From Clostridiales bacterium (GTDB lineage Bacteria > Bacillota > Dethiobacteria > Dethiobacterales > Dethiobacteraceae), in assembly GCA_018335855.1 (NCBI GenBank), contig JAGXRM010000019.1:1-64000 (forward strand): a stretch of DNA of 64,000 nucleotides, given 5' to 3'. The notes below the pieces were generated by a model. That model was given only the letters and a program-made list of their open reading frames with translations. It made no database searches and had not been told where the DNA came from. How positions within the stretch are numbered: the stretch's first letter is position 1; every line of letters begins with the position of its first letter. Made by a program: the position numbers and the translations under genes. Positions 57,479 to 59,330 of this stretch are shown here, piece after piece.

Positions 57479-57634
57479 TATCAGGCCGTCTTCCTTCCAC
57501 TACTCAAACTACTTCAGGAAAATAAAGACCGCCTAATCGAACTTCTGAGCATACCTGACAACCTTGGCCAGGTTCCTCGCTACTTTGTCCCGGGTATACC
57601 GATTACTAAATCCGTCGCATTTATCAAAACATGA
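57479..57634 (+). pseudogene. Fragment of an RHH/CopG-like DNA-binding protein
   Basis: Without a start codon the frame reads ENKDRLIELLSIPDNLGQVP followed by RYFVPGIPITKSVAFIKT and a stop. This resembles the stretch just before the ribbon-helix-helix in small DNA-binding proteins of mobile elements, by memory only. Both ends are missing. It overlaps the next fragment in another frame. Confidence 0.35.
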
Positions 57635-57875
57635 ACGAGGACGCACTGCAAGAAATGCGTCAGGATGGGTTATCCATGATTTCCATTGCAGAAAGCCAGG
57701 GAATGGCAGCAGATTTGTTAAAGCTGTGGTTGATCACCGGAAAGAACAATTGGATGCATTGGTGGAAGAAGGTAAAGTCACAGCAGAACGGGCTGAAGAA
57801 TTAGTATTCTACAACCAGTTGCAGGAATTAAAAACCACAAGTAGAAAGATGATATTAGCGAAAGGAGATTGTGAA
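57610..57875 (+). pseudogene. Frameshifted DUF2680-like small protein
   Basis: The first part reads RRIYQNMNEDALQEMRQDG and LSMISIAESQGMAAD in one frame. After about 57715 the other frame continues with KAVVDHRKEQLDALVEEGKV and TAERAEELVFYNQLQELK. Joined, they give a helical repeat protein like the DUF2680/YckD group. A single indel near 57715-57725 explains the break. No ribosome site or signal peptide is left. Confidence 0.4.
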
Positions 57876-58349
57876 ATGACTGACACCGTAAAACGCTGTT
57901 GAGCAAATAATTCCACCGCCCGTGAAGCGGAAAAGGACAAGCTATGCCCTGTCTGTGGTAAAGTAGGACTGATAGTGCCATCAGAAACTGTAAAGCATCT
58001 GACAAAAACACAATTGTTCAATGCTGTAGGGTCATCAAGCTATAATTTATGTATGAGTGAAGACTGTGATGTTATCTACTTCAACGATGACAATACATAT
58101 TACAGTGCCGACATCATCGTTCCAGTGTGGTTCAAAACAGACGCTAACCCGAAGTATATCTGCTACTGTAGCAAAGTCACCAAAGAAGAGATAGAACAAG
58201 CTGTGTTCATGTATGATGCAAAAACAATAAAGGATGTTGTAAAAATAACAGGTGCAATGAAAAATGCTGATTGCATACATAACAACCCCACCGGCAAGTG
58301 TTGCAGCGAATTTATAAAGCAGGTCATCGAGCAGTCTCTGACTAAATAA
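57876..58349 (+). CDS. CopZ-N-like Zn/[2Fe-2S] metallochaperone, predicted selenoprotein (Cys8-Sec9)
   Basis: From ATG 57876 (AAAGGAG eight bases upstream) the frame is open to TAA 58349 except for TGA at 57900-57902, directly after Cys8. Decoding TGA as selenocysteine gives 157 residues. The protein after it matches the N-terminal domain of Archaeoglobus CopZ: zinc ligands LCPVCG (Cys24, 27) and LCMSEDC (Cys59, 64), then ICYCSKVTKEEIEQA (Cys96, 98), Cys133 and GKCCSEF (Cys142, 143), the BFD-type [2Fe-2S] ligands. Family members carry Cys-Cys-rich N-termini, so Cys-Sec is a natural replacement. The proteins handle copper or other soft metals and may reduce them. A SECIS-like hairpin follows (57912-57937). 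If the TGA is a nonsense mutation instead, the gene could restart at GTG 57975 but would lose the first zinc ligands. The host must carry selABCD, which is not in this window. Confidence 0.7.
57912..57937 (+). promoter_or_regulatory. Candidate bacterial SECIS element
   Basis: CCGC (57916-57919) pairs with GCGG (57927-57930) around the loop CCGTGAA. An outer TCC/GGA helix (57912-57914 with 57935-57937) is separated by an A/AAAA internal loop. The apical loop begins 17 bases after the TGA and contains G-T, within the spacing of known bacterial SECIS hairpins. The stem is short and the loop starts with C, so support is moderate. Confidence 0.45.
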
Positions 58350-58362
58350 AAAACGCACATAG

Positions 58363-59020
58363 CAAGCTCGGAGGTCCAACCTGAAATATGTCCGACCTGC
58401 CTATCACCCGGGCGAGGGTCTGCCGCAGTCAGGCCATATTTACCTCAGGCTGGTCGACAATGATGATGGCCGGATCAATCATGATTCTTATACCTATGTA
58501 CGCATGAAGGAGTTTGTCGACCTGTGTATCAAAGACCCCTCGCTATATACCATGGAAAACTTCATGTTCTTTTTGCATCTGACGGGTTTGAGTGTTCCAG
58601 AGCACCATCTGCAGTACCGCTTTGACCCGGAGAAACCCGTAGAGAACCTGATCAATCCTCATCTTCGGATATCATCTTTTGAAGCGGCCATCCGGGGGTT
58701 TGCCAAATCGGATAAAAGCAAACATGCCATCACAAGTGTCTATACCTGTGAGGGCATTGAGGATGTTTGCATGGCTTCTCTTTATCATTTTTTGAAGCTT
58801 GGCCTTGCGATCAAAGTCTGCGGCAACTGTGGTAAATACTTTGTGCCTCTGCGGCGCTCGGACGCGATGTACTGTGACCGCATCAGTCCTTTTAATGCGT
58901 CCAAAACCTGCAAAGAAGATGGCTCACAAAGAGCCTTTGAAGAAAAGCTGAAAATAGACGATGCTGAAAAATTAAGACGTCAAATATATCAGGCAAAGCA
59001 GATGCGGATCAGGAGAAACC
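58363..59020 (+). pseudogene. DUF6076 protein fragment
   Basis: The open frame has no start at its 5' edge (stop at 58360-58362) and reads NLKYVRPAYHPGEGLPQSGH onward. The core carries a zinc-finger-like element: VCGNCGKYFVPLRRSDAMYC and KTCKEDGSQRAF, typical of DUF6076. Homology ends near MRIRRNPH at about 59020, where unrelated sequence begins. Both ends are truncated. An 82-base piece of it is repeated at 61676-61757. Confidence 0.6.
58723..58804 (+). repeat. 82-base direct repeat, copy 1
   Basis: CATGCCATCACAAGTGT...TTTTTTGAAGCTTGGCC, nearly identical (three differences) to 61676-61757. This copy lies inside the DUF6076 fragment. Confidence 0.9.
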
Positions 59021-59021
59021 C

Positions 59022-59330
59022 TCATACCTTCCCGGTCAGGTCCTTCAGCGCATGGGTAACCATCTCCCAAGTGATATCGGCGGCGTAGCTGTATTTTTTC
59101 TGATACCGCTGCCACAGGCTGGCCATGACGGTGCTGGCGGCATCTAGAAAAACAAACCCTGCCAGCCTATCACCCTTCAAAGGTGAAAAAGCAAGCAGGG
59201 GCTTCTGCTTTATAAATGAGATTGCGCCGGTGGTATACTGCACACGCTGATTCAAACGATGTATCAAGATTCCTTTTTTTAAACGAGGATCGACCTGAAC
59301 TGCTCCTTGAGATTTAAGTAGCTGCCTCAA
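59022..59330 (-). CDS. Unrecognised small reading frame behind the RelE toxin
   Basis: A 102-residue frame (TTG start, AAGGAG is downstream rather than upstream of it), in the same frame as the RelE gene and separated from it only by the RelE TAG. It reads RLNQRVQYTTGAISFIKQKP and LWQRYQKKYSYAADITWEM. I know no family. It ends exactly where DUF6076 homology on the other strand breaks off, so it may be a fragment of a gene that recombined here. Confidence 0.3.
   Translation of the reverse strand: MRQLLKSQGAVQVDPRLKKGILIHRLNQRVQYTTGAISFIKQKPLLAFSPLKGDRLAGFVFLDAASTVMASLWQRYQKKYSYAADITWEMVTHALKDLTGKV

Follow-up and report, generated by a model that had tools for sequence, protein, structure and literature searches.

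A gene at positions 57876-58349 of the window (the whole 64,000-nucleotide stretch of Clostridiales bacterium DNA analysed here) is, judging from its sequence and those of its relatives, apparently a convincing and intact bacterial selenoprotein gene, in which selenocysteine (Sec) takes the place of one cysteine of a metal-binding pair in a zinc/iron-sulfur protein. It is very likely that its single in-frame TGA is read as Sec, as the sequence-only reading had proposed. This assignment is supported by the presence of selA, selB, selC and selD in the genome, by the exchange of TGA and Cys codons at this column among homologues, by a covarying hairpin and by the retention of all ligands.

The gene and its product

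The features discussed below are the following.

57864..57867, + strand: ribosome-binding site GGAG, 8 nt 5' of the ATG at 57876 (read from sequence)
57876..58349, + strand: predicted CopZ_Nterm_CU selenoprotein gene, 157 aa (frame reading; NF045877, E 2.5e-55; PF18423, PF04324)
57897..57902, + strand: predicted Cys-Sec pair, Cys8 codon (TGT) at 57897-57899 and Sec9 codon (TGA) at 57900-57902
57915..57931, + strand: bacterial SECIS-type hairpin, CCGC-[CCGUGAA]-GCGG core at 57916-57930 (family register and covariation; weak alone)
57945..58067, + strand: zinc-binding (zf_CopZ) part with C24, C27, C59 and C64 (PF18423, E 1.1e-18; cysteines invariant)
58155..58304, + strand: BFD-like [2Fe-2S] part with C96, C98, C133 and C142/C143 (PF04324 (Fer2_BFD), E 5.4e-6; 2hu9 alignment; fold match to 2hu9 and Bfd)

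The layout described from the letters alone, with a ribosome site and an ATG followed by eight codons ending in Cys, one TGA and a long frame, was borne out. The translation of 57876-58349 reads MTDTVKRC-TGA-ANNSTAREAEKDKLCPVCGK... up to the TAA at 58347-58349, and the TGA at codon 9 is the sole interruption of the 157-residue frame. AGGAG-type sites are found 5' of the start in most relatives as well. Every Zn and [2Fe-2S] ligand of the CopZ N-domain had also been described as kept, which holds: the protein has C24, C27, C59, C64, C96, C98, C133, C142 and C143, each of them invariant among the relatives.

When C was typed for U, residues 6-155 of the read-through product matched the NCBIfam model NF045877 (CopZ_Nterm_CU) with 186.8 bits, slightly under its cut-off of 190; NF047645, the model of the Cys version, gave only 82.7 bits. 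The N-terminal domain of Archaeoglobus fulgidus CopZ (2hu9) also matched in sequence (E 3.3e-17). An AlphaFold model was made with an alignment of 27 sequences, the plasmid rows being left out (mean pLDDT 72), and a fold search with it returned 2hu9 at the top and Bfd ferredoxins next. The sequence-only reading was right in calling this a Cys-Sec member of the CopZ N-terminal type. The model gives residues 1-17, where the Cys-Sec pair lies, a pLDDT below 50, so that the pair is probably carried on a mobile N-terminal arm.

The gene stands alone in the window, with housekeeping genes on one side and DUF6076, toxin-antitoxin-like and repeated genes on the other; we found no metal-resistance genes next to it there. 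Its surroundings do include duplicated and broken genes, DUF6076 copies among them, as the sequence-only reading had described. The one other genome of the genus lacks the gene. An Rfam scan of the gene gave chance matches only, and searches with it of phage records and, at the DNA level, of plasmids matched nothing. In this genome it is an isolated and probably acquired cargo gene.

Decoding of the TGA

The source genome (2.96 Mb, 99.5% complete) encodes the whole Sec machinery, whose presence had been named as a check. The genes selA (578 bits), selB (385 bits) and selD (380 bits) form one cluster on contig C20 (35958-40194), selD carrying an in-frame TGA of its own, and a tRNA-Sec with a UCA anticodon is found on contig C57. 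An alternative code with TGA as Trp was ruled out because 24 of the 55 window frames over 200 aa end in TGA. A second tRNA-Sec-like gene was likewise ruled out as a reader of the TGA, its anticodon being GCA (Cys). This 94-nt tRNA-Cys of tRNA-Sec-like shape (L010:1501-1594, in this genome C32:16609-16698) fits the selC* tRNA-Cys described in PMC7609411, and it lies about 2.6 kb from a DUF6076 copy that is 89% identical to window positions 58420-59030.

The homologue set, about 95 loci, came from profile scanning of genome contigs, from which 80 loci were kept, from scans of viral contigs, and from hits in plasmids and related genomes. As the sequence-only reading had anticipated, variation between TGA and Cys falls on exactly the column of the window TGA. 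A TGA preceded by Cys (CU) is present in 19 other loci from distant Bacillota (L027, L033, L046, L050, L052, L054, L056, L058, L060, L061, L065, L075, L083, L085, L086, L094, L110, L115 and L117) and Cys in about 70, nearly all loci without TGA having Cys-Cys (CC); these counts overstate independence, because mobile DNA carries several of the CU loci as near-copies. Three near-identical proteins (L050, L059 and L069) have CU, CC and CG at the pair, respectively, which looks like recent Sec loss after transfer. One CU member (L115:5974-6462, IMGVR_UViG_3300006097_000029) has a Mu F-like gene on one side and a phage scaffold gene on the other, which makes it a selenoprotein carried as cargo within a phage head operon.

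In a tree of the family, the window sequence and L033, from a Thermincola MAG, form a CU clade (support 95/98). Most CU rows lie outside a single large CC clade; the CU/CC label requires 3 changes on the tree, compared with 16.6 in shuffles. The end branch of the window sequence is rather long, and its protein is at most 52% identical to any fetched member. All 16 CU genomes tested contain selA, as against 17 of 26 CC genomes (Fisher p 0.008), counts that likewise overstate independence given the near-copies among the CU rows.

Downstream of the TGA, the sequence-only reading had pointed to a hairpin with a G-T loop. Its loop starts 18 nt after the TGA and contains GU; it reads CGUGA in the family register (G second) and CCGUGAA as folded (G third). 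A guide for bacterial SECIS elements asks for a loop 16-37 nt away, a G in the first two loop bases and an MFE of at most -7.5 kcal/mol (PMC13188914), and the window hairpin falls short of the last value with -6.5 kcal/mol. Taken alone, it is no better than chance (z -0.25 against shuffles; p ~0.16 against synonymous recodings). Because of these two shortfalls, the case for a SECIS element rests on comparison.

The CU loci have a 6-bp stem and a 5-nt loop, usually xGUxx, that starts 18 or 21 nt past the TGA; the window hairpin shares its register with L033. In a set of 15 distinct CU sequences, from which L053, whose TGA lies in a degraded N-terminus, and L022, whose spacing differs, were excluded, 91.1% of the cells of the 6-bp stem are paired, compared with 77.5% in shuffles. 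Two-sided changes occur in 17 cells, as against 5.7 in shuffles and at most 3 with a slid partner, and compensatory changes were seen in 4 of the 6 stem pairs. Most CC members form 0-4 pairs in the same register; a few still form 5, as would be expected if they had converted recently. Position, loop and covariation across relatives make the window hairpin a credible candidate element.

Possible roles of the Cys-Sec pair

In the mechanism that we propose, SelB, guided by the hairpin with its loop 18 nt past the UGA, would insert Sec to give Cys8-Sec9, a step that is strongly supported. The pair would then sit on a short N-terminal arm, apparently flexible, that precedes the Zn-binding and [2Fe-2S]-binding domains. 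There it could catch a soft metal, for instance Hg(II), Cu(I) or As(III), with a tighter hold than a Cys-Cys pair has, and hand the metal on. The [2Fe-2S] centre may donate electrons or sense the redox state. Given that Sec is inserted, we lean towards the pair acting as a catcher and deliverer of soft metals. Mercury-type handling would be the best candidate function, since relatives sit in MerT/ArsR/MerA operons or in mobile elements; the MerA beside the L086 member, for example, scores 573 bits (cut-off 454).

It is possible, if distinctly less probable, that a real Cys-Sec protein serves in thiol/selenol redox chemistry, as a selenenylsulfide switch or in [2Fe-2S] electron transfer, and not in metal delivery. 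This proposal competes only with the functional part of our explanation. Most bacterial selenoprotein families are thought to act in redox reactions, according to a passage of PMC9312934; the Fe-S domain resembles Bfd ferredoxin, and many of the relatives' loci are on mobile DNA with no metal gene nearby. However, the neighbours that can be recognised and that recur are an ArsR regulator, MerA, a MerT-like protein and Acr3, and the solved homologous structure is a copper chaperone domain.

A more elaborate form of the soft-metal reading, which we regard as rather unlikely in full, is a mercury relay of the CU protein, a TGA-bearing MerT ('ICU') and MerA, in which Sec would replace Cys at successive handovers; the genes would be mobile cargo moving between Sec-decoding anaerobes, with reversion to Cys once transferred. 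L086 encodes MerT(CU), ArsR, MerA and CopZ-N(CU) together, and the source genome has both kinds of Sec protein, CopZ-N CU and a TGA-bearing MerT, at separate loci.

The MerT-like gene of the source genome (L024:1192-1488, contig C11, ~44.0 kb) has its TGA at the second Cys of a Cys-Cys pair ('ASICULGPL'), with a SECIS-like hairpin, CCGCUA-GGUCU-UAGUGG, following, and is flanked by an ArsR gene and a CopZ_Nterm_CC paralogue. In the MerT of L086 a TGA occupies the equivalent position ('AAICUIGVTL'), and the hairpin there, also with GGUCU, is similar. PMC13188914 already includes a MerT among its selenoproteins.

Intactness of the gene and its place in the family

Between L033 and the window gene, 32% of first, 25% of second and 54% of third codon positions differ, the third diverging most; the window gene's codon positions look to be evolving as in a coding gene, under constraint relative to the nearest homologue. 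Of 45 highly conserved columns, the window protein departs from 3 and other intact members from 0-4.

These observations bear on the proposal that the TGA arose by nonsense mutation of a former Cys-Cys gene within a decaying island, which we consider very improbable. The duplicated and broken surroundings would suit such a pseudogene, as would the CopZ_Nterm_CC paralogue on contig C11 (L024:1492-1833), which has a TGA at a non-cysteine position and has lost the last Fe-S cysteines. That paralogue is followed by a MerA remnant, and the C11 mer cluster looks decayed. The window gene, in contrast to this case of real decay, has no further stop or frameshift, retains all ligands and diverges most at third positions; its nearest homologue, 52% identical, shares the TGA, and the odds of a random TGA landing on the Sec column of the family are about 1 in 157.

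A detail that the sequence-only reading did not mention is that the frame is also open upstream of the ATG, stop-free from 57564. The upstream part (57564-57899) resembles DUF2680/DUF6233 weakly (best E 0.003, under cut-offs) and is probably a gene remnant with a frameshift. That the TGA is the ordinary stop of this frame (57564-57902), with a shorter non-Sec protein made from the GTG at 57975, is the least probable explanation of all: the continuous frame speaks for it, but the upstream frame has no clear family, homologues lack it and retain a ribosome site and a start close 5' of the Cys pair, and initiation at the GTG would lose the Zn ligands C24 and C27.

The Cys-Sec identity of the window protein is not new, because NCBIfam and two reviews list the family. 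PMC13188914 names a '(2Fe-2S)-binding protein (CopZ family) form 2', the Csac_0668 family with the motif CU, beside a form 1 with the motif GxUC, and both forms are also listed in PMC9312934; CopZ is not named in the main text of the ocean-sampling paper of 2008 to which the reviews refer. The Cys-Sec CopZ-type family and its CU form are therefore already known as predicted selenoproteins, and the window gene is a further member.

Its closest counterpart is NF045877 ('Csac_0668 family 2Fe-2S cluster-binding (seleno)protein'), with which it shares a full-length match, the domains, the CU position and an anaerobic Bacillota host; it differs in scoring just under the cut-off, in its low identity to the fetched members and in lying away from metal genes. 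NF047645 (CopZ_Nterm_CC, putative iron-sulfur cluster-binding metallochaperone) has the same fold and ligands and an N-terminal Cys-Cys of its own, but Cys where the window has Sec. The A. fulgidus domain shares the Zn and [2Fe-2S] core; its aligned chain, however, begins at residue 4, the first Zn cysteine, without a counterpart of the Cys-Cys arm and without Sec. Form 1 belongs to the same protein family and has Sec, but at a C-terminal cysteine of the Fe-S region, where the window has Cys.

A CopZ-N protein from another genome of the same class (G022; L022:1440-1910) has two in-frame TGAs, N-terminal in 'KLUGN' and C-terminal in 'GKUCG'. After each comes a perfect 6-bp hairpin whose loop has GGU, at 24 nt and 20 nt respectively. 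Only a single Sec is given for either published form, so this two-Sec form may be unreported.

A gene that automatic annotation would call broken is thus probably intact and translated with Sec. For the family, the comparison provides a SECIS model with one fixed register, covariation and decay in the Cys form. The evidence gathered here also points to the recurrence of Cys-Sec pairs in soft-metal handling proteins of anaerobes.
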